Translations under genes and position numbers: made by a program
Shown: positions 57,573 to 64,000 of the stretch, in pieces
Layout of the letters: every line of letters begins with the position of its first letter
How positions within the stretch are numbered: position 1 is the stretch's first letter
DNA from: Planctomycetota bacterium
GTDB lineage: Bacteria > Planctomycetota > Planctomycetia > Pirellulales > Lacipirellulaceae
Reading direction: 5' to 3'
Assembly (NCBI GenBank): GCA_013152205.1
Contig: JAADGV010000050.1
Location: 57,321-121,320 of the forward strand
Length of the DNA: 64,000 nt
Notes under the pieces: generated by a model
Told to the model about the DNA's origin: nothing
Seen by the model: only the letters and a program-made list of their open reading frames with translations
Database searches by the model: none

Positions 57573-58270
57573 AGATCGCCTCCCGGCGGTAGATTTTTTG
57601 GATGATAGGTCCAAAAGGCTTCCTAACCCAACTTGTGGACAAACCTGTCGCAAAAAATAGCAAACAACGATAGGAGCCCATTATACGATGAATAAGCAGC
57701 AACGCCAGCACGGGCGTTATCCCACAGAATAAGCTTCGTTCAGCAGTTTCAGGCGAGTTCTTCCCCCCCGGCTGATCGCGAGGATCGTTTGAAATAGGGC
57801 ATCGCGAGTAGCTGATATAACCGGTGGAGTCCACGCGAATGGCGAAAGTTTCTAAAGTCTGACCCCCGATTGAATCGACACTATCTTTCGGAAGGGTTGT
57901 TCTCGACAGCACGGCCACACTGGCCAATCTAGCTGAAAGGAATGTCCTACCAAGGGGGGAGCCTGCCAATTGAAACGGACACGCACAATGCTCAGGCAGT
58001 GTGCGCCCGCCCGGACCACACGCGGTCAGCTCTCTCTACGCAACGCGATATGTTGCAAACCTATTTAGCTATGGAGGCATTGAAAGACGCGATCGTATGG
58101 ATTGTAACGACTACTACCTGTAGTCGCCAATTTAACGACTTTTGCCAATCTTCCAGTGCTTGCATTGCCGATAGGACTTACATGACGGAGAGGATCAGAA
58201 GGACCTGAGCCAACCCAACATGCGATTTCGGAGTGCCCCCGACCCAGGTGTGCATTCGGCTATTTTACTG

Positions 58271-58440
58271 CGGAGGTCGTAAGTTTTGAGTTTCGTCGCA
58301 AGCTTTGCGTAGCGAAACACAAGACCAGCTTCAGACGTTGAAACTCACTGGCGGAAGGGAAGCTAACGCCAGGCCGAAGCACAACAAAGGGGCGCCCAGG
58401 CTGACGGACTTTCCCGAAGCCTGACCAGCGTCAACGCAAG
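58271..58440 (+). ncRNA. Candidate structured leader RNA upstream of the BldC-REC gene
   Basis: Nested pairings: GGTC/GACC, TTG/CAA, GTTTCG/CGAAAC, CGCAA/TTGCG; separate junction CGTTGA/TCAACG enclosing CTGGCG/CGCCAG and CAGGCT/AGCCTG hairpins with complementary loops. Confidence 0.5.
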
Positions 58441-58460
58441 ACAATATTGGAGTACCCGTG

Positions 58461-59033
58461 ATGAAGGTCTTTACTACTGGTCAGGTCGCTAAGATCTGTA
58501 AAGTGGCCCCGCGCACGGTCAGCAAATGGTTTGACTCAGGGCGTTTGAAGGGCTATCGCATTCCTGGTTCGCAGGACCGGCGCATACCCCGTGAATATTT
58601 AATCAAGTTCCTAAAAGAACATGGCATGCCATTGGGCGATCTAGAGGACGAGGCGATGGCCAAAGTTCTGATCGTCGCCCAGGATCAGGTCTTGATTGAG
58701 AACCTCAAAAGAGAGTTGCCAGCGGAAAGATCGTTCCGCACATCCATGGCAGCCAGTGGGTTCGAAGCGGGCATCCAAGCCGAAAGTTTCCACCCCGACT
58801 GTATCATTGTCGACTTCTCGATTGGTCAGGTCGAAGCACTGCAGATTTGTCAAAATCTGCGTCGCAGTAGCGACTTCGCCGATACCATCTTGATCGCTTT
58901 GCTACCCGACGATGGAACTACCGCAAGCTTCGATCGTTCTAGCATCAACGAAACGTTCAAAAAACCGTTCGACTCCGCTTTGCTGGCCGAACGCCTACGA
59001 ACGCTCATTGGAGCCAAGAAAGAGTTGGTCTAG
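58461..59033 (+). CDS. BldC/MerR-type HTH protein with C-terminal response-regulator-like receiver domain
   Basis: FTTGQVAKICKVAPRTVSKWFDSGRLKGYRIPGSQDRRIPREYLIKFLKEHGM; VLIVAQDQVLIENL, CIIVDFSIGQ, FKKPFD. Confidence 0.85.
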   Translation: MKVFTTGQVAKICKVAPRTVSKWFDSGRLKGYRIPGSQDRRIPREYLIKFLKEHGMPLGDLEDEAMAKVLIVAQDQVLIENLKRELPAERSFRTSMAASGFEAGIQAESFHPDCIIVDFSIGQVEALQICQNLRRSSDFADTILIALLPDDGTTASFDRSSINETFKKPFDSALLAERLRTLIGAKKELV

Positions 59034-59184
59034 CGAGTGAGGTCGAATTTCGACCCGACACCTTAGCACCCAACCCGTCGGTACGATTGCCAGCGGATTA
59101 CATACGAAAACTGGGGCTGTTGAATGAATCAACTGCGAGGCAACTAATCTCTCCCGGTTAGTTGCCACTTCCCCGCACATACCG

Positions 59185-59221
59185 GCCTCGCTACTGAACT
59201 TTCAGTAGCGAGGCTTTTTTT
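59185..59221 (+). terminator. Rho-independent terminator of the BldC-REC gene
   Basis: GCCTCGCTACTGAA-ct-TTCAGTAGCGAGGC, then TTTTTTT. Confidence 0.93.
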
Positions 59222-59286
59222 ATGCGCCGAGGGGCAAAAGGTGTCCGGTACAGCGACAACGTGTTTTGAAATTGAAAAAGGGGGTT

Positions 59287-59354
59287 AGGGGCTAGGAACT
59301 GGGGGCTAGGGAAAAGGGTCATTTCACTACCCTAGTCCCCAGATCCTAGCTCCT
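59287..59354. repeat. Family H hairpin (aggggctaggaactgggggctaggg)
   Basis: Inverted arms 59287-59311 and 59330-59354, 22/25 complementary by eye. Confidence 0.75.
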
Positions 59355-59580
59355 CTTATGTTCAAGCGATTTTCCAGTTTACGAGGCGAGGGAATTCTAA
59401 AACACGTTCTAAGCCGCCAGCACGAGATTTCAACATTGTCGTGTGGGTTTCTTCAATCGTTCCGTTGCCGCTAAAAAATCCGTCTCTGCACGAAGAATTG
59501 TGCCCCATTGCGGTAGCGGATGGATGTGTTAGACTCGATCGTTCAGAAATACTGTAATGTCTAACCCGTTCGGAGTGTTG

Positions 59581-60381
59581 ATGGAGTTGTTTGGCAACGG
59601 CCGGAATCGAGTCAAAACTGCACTCTTGCTTGCTGCTGGAACTGGCAGTCGCCTTCAACCTCTTACCGATGAATCGCCCAAGTGCTTAACTGAAATCAAC
59701 GGAACAACGATCCTTGAACGTCTCGTTCGCGGGTTGCAGTTGTGGGAATTCGAACGTCTGGTTGTTGTCGTGGGGCACCTTGACGGTTGCCTGCGTGACT
59801 ATCTGGATAACTTAGTGAGTGGGCTAGACTGTCTAGGGAGCGGGCTGACAATCGAGTATGTCAGCAGTGCGAAATATCGCACCACGAACAACATCTACTC
59901 CTTGTGGGCGGCCCGCCAGGTAATTCAAGAGCCGTTTCTACTACTTGAGTGCGATCTCATCTTCGACGACGCCCTATTGGGCAAGATGCTGGTGCCCGAC
60001 CGGATTGCTGTCTCTCACATTTTACCTTGGATGAATGGAACCACGGTTTCGCTCGATCGTTTTCACCAAGTGATCCGTTTTCACATGGGCAAAGATCAGC
60101 CACCTAGTCGACTCACACACAAGACAGTAAATATGTACAGCTTCTCGCGGACGTCTTGGCAGCGCGTGACACGAAGGTTGGAACAATACATTTCGGCTGG
60201 TCGAGTGAACGGATATTACGAGGCGGTGTTCGCAGAAATGGTTGCCGAGGGAGATCTCTCGTTCGAGGCGGTTTTCTTTGATAACGAGTGTTGGTACGAA
60301 ATCGATACTCTTGATGATCTCCACGAAGCGGAACGCCTCTTTCCCGGTAGCAACGGACAGTTGACTTCTGGTGTGGTCTGA
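59581..60381 (+). CDS. Sugar/choline-phosphate-type nucleotidyltransferase (LicC-like)
   Basis: ALLLAAGTGSRLQPLTDESPKCLTEINGTTILERLVRGL; YRTTNNIYSLWAARQVI; start uncertain. Confidence 0.75.
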   Translation: MELFGNGRNRVKTALLLAAGTGSRLQPLTDESPKCLTEINGTTILERLVRGLQLWEFERLVVVVGHLDGCLRDYLDNLVSGLDCLGSGLTIEYVSSAKYRTTNNIYSLWAARQVIQEPFLLLECDLIFDDALLGKMLVPDRIAVSHILPWMNGTTVSLDRFHQVIRFHMGKDQPPSRLTHKTVNMYSFSRTSWQRVTRRLEQYISAGRVNGYYEAVFAEMVAEGDLSFEAVFFDNECWYEIDTLDDLHEAERLFPGSNGQLTSGVV

Positions 60382-60424
60382 CCATGACAACCCTTGATTA
60401 CGCAGCCGCCAGCCGCTAACTCCC

Positions 60425-60560
60425 ACTAGTGTTCTGCCGCAGTTCAATTTTCGGATTAGCCGCTTGGGCGCTAGCCCCGGTTAAGGCGAGAAAAACCGTG
60501 GCTAGCGCCAAAACGGCTAATTTGCTCAACTCGAAAATCAAGCTGCGGTGCAATACTAGT
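60425..60560. repeat. Family G long imperfect inverted repeat between the NTase and CDP-alcohol transferase genes
   Basis: ACTAGTGTTCTGCCGCAG...GATTAGCCG..TGGGCGCTAGCCCCGGTT / AACCGTGGCTAGCGCCAAAACGGCTAAT...CTGCGGTGCAATACTAGT. Confidence 0.85.
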
Positions 60561-60635
60561 ACCGCCCGCGCGCTGCCACATAGAAAAGTACTGTGGACAC
60601 TACTTCTCTCTAACAAGGGCTCTCTGAAATCGTCA

Positions 60636-61328
60636 ATGCATGAACCACCGAAAAATCTTTTTGTCAGAAACTTGGCAAACATCGTCTCGATTCTTGGCGC
60701 GCTTCCGATCTGCCTACTCTTCGGCAAAGATGGATACCAGTACTTGCTCCCGTTGATCATCTACAACAACGTCATGGACGATTTGGACGGCATCTTGGCG
60801 GCCAAGTTGAACATCCAAAGCAACCTCGGCGCTCTCTTGGACAACATTTGTGACCTGGTAGCACACAGCGTCTTCGTAATGATTGTGGGAATGTACTACT
60901 TTCAGGAGATGGGGGCTCAGGAAGCGGGGCATCCCAGCCTGGGCGGAATCTGCCTCGCCGCCAGTCTGCTGGCCACTAGCGCGATGATCCTGCGTGTTGT
61001 TACGCGGATCAATCCGGCTTCTGAGACCGGGACCGGCTCGCCAACGAACGAACTAATCCGCCATGTTTTCTTCGTCTTACTCGTGGCGTCTATCTTTGCA
61101 TTCGATCCGACGCCGTACTTGATCGTCACATTTCTTCTTCATTCCGTGTCGATGCTTGTCCAGTTTAAGATGCCCTACTTGATTCGAAGTCTGACCAAGT
61201 CGGCCACCTCGATTGGCCTCATAAATGTTGCGTTGCTTGTGGCGTGGCTACTGCCCTCTGCGGCCCCGGTCGTCGCAGCGTCGTTCTTCCTTTCTTATCT
61301 GGCTTCATTCGCTGCAGGCAAAAAGTGA
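60636..61328 (+). CDS. CDP-alcohol phosphatidyltransferase family membrane protein
   Basis: MDDLDGILAAKLNIQSNLGALLDNICD (D-x2-DG-x2-A..G-x3-D-x3-D), multiple TM segments. Confidence 0.75.
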   Translation: MHEPPKNLFVRNLANIVSILGALPICLLFGKDGYQYLLPLIIYNNVMDDLDGILAAKLNIQSNLGALLDNICDLVAHSVFVMIVGMYYFQEMGAQEAGHPSLGGICLAASLLATSAMILRVVTRINPASETGTGSPTNELIRHVFFVLLVASIFAFDPTPYLIVTFLLHSVSMLVQFKMPYLIRSLTKSATSIGLINVALLVAWLLPSAAPVVAASFFLSYLASFAAGKK

Positions 61329-61806: not shown

Positions 61807-62382
61807 CTATTCGAATATCCACTCCAGCGGTACTACAGACGATTCACCCAGCAGAAAATGGCGTGCAGAGCTCCAACGCTAATCAACAGCCCGCCCCACA
61901 AGTCCGGCGGTCACCGGATTCTTGTGCATGTAATCCAGCTTCTCTTCCGCTTTCTTTCGGGAGTACAAGTTGAACGGATAATACTTCGGCTACCAGAACG
62001 GATCGGCTAGCGGAATTTTGCTGGCAAACTGCGGAGCCACGCCACGAAGCATCTTCTTGAGTTTCATGCTGGAAGTTTGTTTCCAGCTCTTCATGAATCG
62101 GCTCAGTTCGCCCGGCTTGTCAAACCACACGATGAGATGCACATGGTCAGGCATGACCACAAATCCTGAGCAGATGCCCCTATACTCGTCGAGCTTTTGT
62201 ACAAGCAACTCAAGCAGCGTATCCCGCAACGGTTCGCAGTCGAGCATCCGTCGTCGGTGGTAGCAAGAGAACGTCACGAAGTGAGCATGACGTTCTTGGT
62301 CGTAGATTCGTCGTTGGGCCATGACGTCATTGTGAGTGCCAAGCCAACGCCGATCAACCTCCTGTGCCACACACACCGACAT
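61807..62382 (-). pseudogene. REP-associated tyrosine transposase (Y1_Tnp/IS200-like) interrupted by two in-frame TAG codons
   Basis: HFVTFSCYHRRRMLD, GFVVMPDHVHLIVWF, then [63 protein letters not shown] in one frame. Confidence 0.85.
62358..62381. repeat. Right inverted flank of RAYT-like pseudogene
   Basis: CCTCCTGTGCCACACACACCGACA. Confidence 0.6.
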
Positions 62383-62721: not shown

Positions 62722-63747
62722 CTACGCCGCTGCCGGAAGCTGATAGGCTTTGCCGTCACGAAGCATCGCATAAACCACCAACAGCAAGCGGCGAGCAATC
62801 GCGCAGGTAGCCTTCTTCTTGCCGACTCGCTGGCTGAGCCGATCGAAAACAACCTGCCAACGACAACTATTTCGTTTCATGCGGTGGGCTAATTGGACCA
62901 TGACCCAACGCAGCAACGGTGAACCCGCCTTGGTCAGCCTCAGGTCTTTACGACGGCCATCGCTTTCCCGCACTCCAGGGGCCAAGCCGGCGAAGGCAAC
63001 CACGGCGTCACCGCTGCCGAATCGCTCCCAGTCTCCCAGTTCGGCCAATAGCACGTCGATGGTCACCAATCCCACCCCCGGCATCGTGGCCAATACCGCT
63101 CGGGCCTCGTGTTCCCTGATTGTCCCCTGCGATGCAAAACGAACCAAACGCTCCTCGACTTTCTCAAGCCGCCGACACGCCTCGTCAAAATCTTCCCACA
63201 GGTCTTCGAGCAACCAGCGTTCTTCGGCGAGAAGTTGGAGTTGCTGGCTAGCTAGGCGACCGAGCTTTGAAAATAGGTCTTGGCGGTCGGCATTGTAACG
63301 TGTCAGGACGCCGCGAATGGTGTTCTTGATGGCGGTGATGCGACTTTGGATTTTCTGACGGCGTCGGACCAACGAACGATGTTGCCGAACGCGAGGTGTT
63401 GCTCGCCAGGCCTCGGGGATCATGTTGTGAGCCAGAAACTCGGCCAAGATGCGAGCGTCGATCTTATCCGTCTTACAAGTACTTTCGGCAATAATGCGAA
63501 GCTTGCCCGCATGGGCAATCACCACCCTTTCGGCATACTTTTCTGCTACCCCGGCAAACCAGTCGTAGCCGATGGTTGCTTCCACGGTAATTTGAAAAAG
63601 ACCCAGCATACGAAGGAAGTCCTTAATCTGAGCCACATCCTGGCAAAGAATACGCCGCCTCTGAATGACATGGGTAGTTCTGTCGACTATTTCCACAACG
63701 CAAAAACTGATACTCTTCTTGTGGAGGTCCGCACCGACGTATTTCAT
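62722..63747 (-). mobile_element. IS110-family transposase (DEDD N-terminal domain + Transposase_20)
   Basis: MKYVGADLHKKSISFCVVE, ITVEATIGYDWFAGVAE, CKTDKIDARILAEFL, MPGVGLVTIDVLLAELGDWERF, GLAPGVRESDGRRKDLRLTKAGSPLLRWVMVQLAH. Confidence 0.93.
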
Positions 63748-64000
63748 GGCGAGTTTCCTTTTGTGGAGGGGTTGGAAGTGAACTGCTACCAACGGTCTAC
63801 CACGTTTTCAGGGACCGCCACAATCGCGGTGCGGCCTCTGCTCTCTTCCATGTTTTCAACCGTTCGCGTTAGGCGGACTCGCAGGCAAAGTTTACTCCGA
63901 ACGACTGTCGGTGCCACTCAACGCCGTTAACCCTTTTTATTCGGTAAAAAACAAATCTTGATGCGACTGAGCGTTATGGTCCATGCTTTCTTTGCACAAG

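Follow-up and report, generated by a model that had tools for sequence, protein, structure and literature searches.

A conserved structured leader RNA with GGA-containing hairpin loops precedes the gene of a BldC-type receiver-domain regulator in Pirellulales

The gene for a regulator with a BldC-type helix-turn-helix (HTH) and a receiver domain (BldC-REC) is almost certainly preceded, in the planctomycete genome studied here, by a conserved structured RNA leader. This leader occupies about 280 nt (58181-58460, + strand) of the window, i.e., of the whole 64,000-nucleotide stretch of DNA that was analyzed and to which all positions refer. Its extent is supported by a covariance model (R1), by covariation and by folding energy (58181-58460, z = -2.75, with 2/200 shuffled sequences folding equally well). 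We regard the leader as a new RNA family, which most likely works like a known kind of leader. The favored function, to which we give an even chance, is that it makes translation of BldC-REC responsive to CsrA.

The gene (58461-59033, +) encodes a protein with Pfam domains HTH_17 and Response_reg, and its start codon, ATG at 58461, was confirmed by alignment of orthologues. An HTH-receiver gene at this place had also been described in an earlier note on this DNA. The N-terminal HTH resembles that of BldC family regulators (NF033787); however, the protein scores below the family cut-off (HTH_BldC) and is fused to a receiver domain. Among the 59 nearest genomes, 55 loci carry orthologues that are 82-99% identical, and at E-values up to 1e-60 an orthologue was detected in 229/247 Pirellulales genomes, nearly always as a single copy. 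In other families of the class, orthologues are 60-72% identical. The regulator is thus among the most conserved of the order, and we found no role assigned to it.

The structure of the leader is shown by comparative evidence. Read in the 5' to 3' direction, the elements are a promoter-like block, hairpin P1, stem P2a, the GACCCAG loop, stem P2b enclosing hairpin P3, hairpin P4, a single-stranded tail, the Shine-Dalgarno (SD) sequence and the ATG. P1 (58192-58211, +; GGATCAG-AAGGAC-CTGAGCC) has a covarying stem (helices 1-2) and the hexaloop AAGGAC at 58199-58204. P2 is a long-range stem, in which 58233-58260 pairs with 58373-58395 and which holds a near-invariant GACCCAG internal loop. P2a consists of the 5' strand GTGCCCC (58233-58239, +), with compensatory changes at 5/5 modelled pairs (helix 3), and the 3' strand GGGGCGC (58389-58395, +), supported by covariation, tree events and energy folding. 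The internal loop, (C)GACCCAGG at 58240-58248 (+), keeps GACCCAG almost unchanged across the order. P2b pairs TGTGCATTCGGC (58249-58260, +; 8 covarying pairs, helices 4-6) with GCCGAAGCACA (58373-58383, +; covariation and energy folding). Hairpin P3 (58348-58372, +; CTGGCG/CGCCAG) has the loop GAAGGGAAGCTAA with AGGGA at 58356-58360 and is supported by enrichment of ANGGA loops. P4 (58397-58423, +; CAGGCT/AGCCTG) shows a compensatory change to CAAGCT/AGCTTG in one relative (L010), and folding of the P4 region gave a mean z of -2.36 over 117 leaders. The SD sequence GGAG (58449-58452, +), which contains a third GGA, is kept before the start codon in orthologues, and the spacing of the leader to SD and start codon is largely constant over the order.

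Energy-based folding agrees with this arrangement: the centroid of the full leader (58181-58460) consists of P1, P2, P3 and P4, and the fold with the conserved pairs enforced (-97.1 kcal/mol) lies close to the minimum (-97.8 kcal/mol). No sequence copies of the leader were found elsewhere in the same genome.

Covariation beyond shuffled and slid controls is the decisive evidence for a conserved structured RNA. Among 99 aligned leaders, 91.4% of cells were paired and 18/19 pairs had a double change; double-change (compensatory) cells numbered 200, whereas shuffling gave 35.6 and slid controls gave 18-49. Since these leaders had been aligned by fitting to the model, two additional checks were carried out, by strand swap and by tree. 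A leader's own 5' strand outpaired strands swapped in from other genomes in 1300/1513 comparisons. Mapping P2a onto a coding-region tree gave, over its six pairs, 44 inferred compensatory double substitutions versus 45 breaks, 28 of which fell at the outermost pair. In both checks the 3' strand was picked by pairing score, and the swap control deals with the resulting bias. Variants of P2a visible by eye include GGTCCC/GGGACC, AGTTCC/GGAACT, CGTTCC/GGAACG, TATCCC/GGGATA, TATTCC/GGAATA, GGTCTC/GAGACC and AATTTC/GAAGTT.

The covariance model R1, built from P1 and P2 of 15 leaders, detected the leader in 133/247 Pirellulales genomes, nearly always as a single match and with E-values that are rough; the missing matches in about half of the order are partly due to strict filters and divergence. 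Of 140 matches, 126 are directly upstream of, and on the same strand as, a BldC-REC gene, from which they are separated by a median of 75 nt; six more were confirmed upstream of the gene in fetched loci. Four others are at contig ends. The last four are weak, one (L165) sitting inside a long open frame and the other three having E above 5e-4. Two inspected loci of family f7 had neither P1 nor GACCCAG, and no significant R1 match was found in other families of the class. A related element of the type ACCCC(GAC)..GGGGT with a GGA-containing hairpin is nevertheless visible there by eye. In one such family (f22; L179-L183, orthologue 65-72% identical), the upstream region has a related element, ACCCC(GAC)...GGCTAGGAGAGCC-like GGA hairpin...GGGGTGAAG, which is too diverged for R1. 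A different conserved element, GGAGGGGT...ACCTCCGAGGTCTCGC...GAGTGGAGTCCTCG, precedes the gene in family f21 (L188, L190-L193).

The earlier note, made from the sequence of the window, had proposed a candidate structured leader RNA, not described before, ahead of this gene at 58271-58440. This general claim is strongly supported: homologue search and covariation analysis upstream of orthologues, as the note had proposed, found conservation and strong covariation across the order, and the Rfam cmscan it proposed matched no known family. Every arm it named is present, including GTTTCG/CGAAAC within 58283-58325 and CGTTGA (58336-58341) with TCAACG (58431-58436), and in the window GGGAA and TTCCC are indeed present in the loops. 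Two of its hairpins, CTGGCG (58348-58353)/CGCCAG (58367-58372) and CAGGCT (58397-58402)/AGCCTG (58418-58423), are conserved as P3 and P4; the others are not. The region was drawn too short, leaving out P1 (58192-58211) and the 5' strand of P2 (58233-58260), and the strongest conservation in the aligned upstream regions lies 5' of it. With its flanks (58265-58460) it folded only moderately better than shuffles (z = -2.23). The local reading failed because half of the long-range stem is outside this box.

The architecture proposed in that note, two modules with a kissing contact between loops, turned out to be mostly wrong: what actually closes the structure is P2, the stem that carries the GACCCAG loop. 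Its first module falls within a lineage-specific insertion in the P2/P3 junction (58261-58347, +), delimited by alignment within the genus. This insertion has the same form only in the nearest relative (L004), the rest of the genus having different inserts or none, and the GGTC/GACC arm of the module is lost even in that relative. The supposed closing stem CGTTGA/TCAACG fares similarly: CGTTGA occurs only in the window genome and its nearest relative, and TCAACG is conserved in much of the genus, apparently unpaired. The kissing contact is not supported because its TTCCC half is missing from the corresponding loop in relatives, even of the same genus.

Upstream of P1, the consensus of 108 leaders revealed a promoter-like conserved block (58130-58173, +). 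Its hallmark is GCCGAT (58167-58172; 88-98% conserved per position), which mostly precedes the CAG of P1 by about 27-31 nt and itself follows T-rich and CTTCC-like blocks. From the consensus, this block looks like an order-wide promoter. GCCGAT resembles the -10 box of sigma-28, and no -35 element that would match a sigma-28 reading was found in the leader consensus. A promoter scan for sigma-70 gave no match on the + strand. Transcription probably starts near 58180. A terminator scan covering 57900-59300 detected none separating the leader from the gene; the sole intrinsic terminator (59184-59221, +) follows the gene, and thus leader and gene look like one transcription unit. A short upstream ORF (58182-58208, ATG..TGA, MTERIRRT) was also considered. 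Its frame is broken by one inserted base in three relatives (L008, L010 and L011) and its ATG is missing in other families; therefore, it is not a conserved uORF.

Beyond the terminator, an imperfect, MITE- or REP-like inverted repeat rich in GGGGCTAGG/CCTAGTCCCC (59284-59358) draws spurious microRNA matches in Rfam. GTTAGC-type repeats are also inserted in two of the leaders (L020 and L024). The repeat is followed by genes for a nucleotidyltransferase (NTP_transf_3) and then a CDP-alcohol phosphatidyltransferase (59557-61328, +), possibly a phospholipid head-group pair. Two ORFs on the opposite strand appear by eye to be transposase-like, one of the REP-associated (Y1) type (61990-62382, -) and one of the IS110 type (62722-63792, -).

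Two loops of the leader stand out, both of them containing GGA. The P1 loop is a six-nt ANGGAN in 103/117 leaders, with mostly A or G at position 2 and a free position 6. In P3, ANGGA in a loop of 5-9 nt on at least 3 bp was present in 71/117 leaders versus 17.6 in shuffles, an approximately fourfold excess, and no comparable excess was observed for four rearranged control motifs. The stem of P3 varies among the 117 leaders and the ANGGA loop is retained; in the window, the P3 loop has 13 nt. Leaders lacking the P1 hexaloop tend to lack the P3 motif as well (95/10/4/8, Fisher p = 2e-5, uncorrected for relatedness). About 12/117 leaders without the P1 hexaloop still keep the scaffold, and therefore the scaffold may serve beyond the display of GGA. 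In three members of one genus (g7; L021, L022 and L027), neither P1 nor P3 has a GGA loop and GACCCAG is kept; two of these (L021 and L027) have additional TGACCCAG copies in other hairpin loops. A scan of the window genome for CAGANGGANCTG gave 3 matches versus 13 for the reversed control, so that the exact string is without genome-wide excess.

CsrA sites present ANGGA in a hairpin loop that usually has six nt; in glgC one CsrA dimer bridges such a loop and the SD sequence (PMC7652899, PMC4894983). The leader could be read in these terms. The GGAG of its SD sequence supplies a further GGA site, which is weak evidence given that most SD sequences contain GGA. A G-C pair (GANGGANC) closes the loop of P1 and mostly that of P3 as well, and the SELEX consensus RUACARGGAUGU with its C-G pair was not matched. 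SELEX-derived sites and those of RsmE favor a C-G closing pair (CANGGANG) (PMC4894983, PMC7652899). This consensus is a selected optimum and no strict requirement; it is still a reason against filing the leader as a proven member of the CsrA-controlled leaders. The protein itself is available: csrA was found in 59/59 relatives tested, in several copies, and in the window genome there are six matches. Three CsrA copies examined in this genome retain L4 and R44, and fliW is located about 170 bp from one csrA. Across the order, csrA matches range from 3 to 14 per genome, an unusual expansion; copies in the window genome are on contigs C8, C34, C109 and others.

Because GGA loops, the GGA of the SD sequence and the presence of csrA and fliW fit the CsrA pattern, a CsrA-responsive translational leader is the favored reading. 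In such a mechanism, the P1 ANGGAN hexaloop, the P3 ANGGA loop and the SD GGAG would be three candidate CsrA sites, and the P2 scaffold, with its covarying stem and GACCCAG loop, would position them. A CsrA dimer docked on one loop would also contact the second loop or the SD sequence; by bridging them it would block 30S binding, leaving the regulator repressed. If CsrA were then released, which FliW might bring about, the regulator would be turned on. We infer that the leader is transcribed and bound by CsrA, and likewise the sign of regulation and the signal.

Several features do not fit the CsrA model: the G-C pairs that close the GGA loops, the 13-nt P3 loop of the window, the minority of leaders that retain the scaffold but no GGA loops, and P2 with its GACCCAG loop, which is more elaborate than CsrA leaders need and contains a motif that CsrA does not explain. 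This last part of the RNA might be the sensing part of a new regulatory RNA class, for a ligand or a protein, with the GGA loops as a second, CsrA-dependent input and with two signals integrated; we consider this distinctly unlikely. It is possible but unlikely that P2 and GACCCAG are bound for autoregulation by a protein other than CsrA, be it BldC-REC, a ribosomal protein or some further protein that binds RNA, the GGA loops contacting that protein or the ribosome. Such binding would suit the strict linkage of the leader to one orthologous gene, the position of GACCCAG as the most conserved unpaired element and the persistence of the scaffold where GGA loops are lost, but it would not by itself predict the exact combination of an ANGGAN hexaloop in P1 and an ANGGA loop in P3, and BldC-type HTH proteins bind DNA, which also counts against this reading. 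A riboswitch, in which P2 and GACCCAG form a ligand aptamer, the P1 and P3 loops make tertiary contacts and access to the SD sequence is controlled, appears improbable to us. The compact covarying scaffold, the near-invariant loop and the location directly upstream of the SD sequence would be expected of one. However, a riboswitch class tends to be found with several different genes and in more than one phylum, whereas this RNA is confined to a single regulator gene within one order and gives about one match per genome; in addition, no alternative helix sequestering the SD sequence was identified, and the stem of P3 varies while its GGA loop is kept.

Several GGA hairpins on a stable scaffold behind a conserved promoter-like block of their own would also be compatible with a separate small RNA, e.g., a sponge for CsrA of the RsmZ or CsrB kind, with a gene that merely happens to precede that of the regulator. 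This is very improbable, as the terminator scan of 57900-59300 found none between leader and gene, the spacing to the SD sequence and start codon is mostly kept across the order, and the RNA was not found away from the BldC-REC gene. The two-module model with its GGGAA/TTCCC loop-loop interaction is scarcely credible: its arms exist in the window, but across the genus neither the first module nor the closing stem nor TTCCC is conserved, and folding with its pairs enforced reaches -84.8 kcal/mol, which is 13 kcal/mol worse than the minimum.

Retention of the leader fold over the order suggests that the dose of the regulator matters. If CsrA acts on it, the leader would be a candidate mRNA target in a csrA-rich group; work on CsrA targets in planctomycetes was not found in the literature searched. 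If the dual-input reading were true, a leader integrating two signals would determine how much is made of a regulator with order-wide conservation. The analysis provides a covariance model together with a structure that is exact and open to mutation.

No description of the leader was found in the literature searched. An Rfam 15 cmscan of 58100-58470 gave no match at E up to 10, including to TwoAYGGAY and known riboswitches, and a scan over 2 kb gave none in the leader. Over 18 orthologous loci, Rfam returned only two sub-threshold matches, both on the minus strand of one locus (L016). Among described RNAs, the planctomycete Rhodopirellula-1 motif (Weinberg 2010, PMC2864571) is rated there as probably cis-regulatory and as ambiguous as RNA; it is also listed from Proteobacteria, with no Rfam accession in the table. 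It was compared with the leader by its description only, so that identity is neither shown nor excluded. TwoAYGGAY RNA (RF01731) is a candidate CsrA-binding sRNA with two hairpins whose A-N-GGA-N type loops are proposed CsrA sites (PMC4333381). The leader shares two hairpins with loops of this type, but does not match the Rfam model. Loop position 2 is, by its name, a pyrimidine in TwoAYGGAY and mostly a purine here, and TwoAYGGAY is listed as not cis-regulatory, whereas the RNA described here is a gene leader.

The closest likeness in function would be to leaders repressed by CsrA or RsmA, such as those of E. coli glgC, C. jejuni flaA and P. fluorescens hcnA. Like these, the BldC-REC leader combines ANGGA hairpin loops with GGA in the SD sequence, and, as in CsrA/RsmA systems, its own genome encodes a FliW homologue as well as CsrA that retains L4 and R44. 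Unlike them, it has a far larger covarying scaffold with a near-invariant GACCCAG loop, its binding by CsrA is presumed, and its GGA loops are closed by G-C rather than C-G. In this case, moreover, one leader is kept over a whole order.
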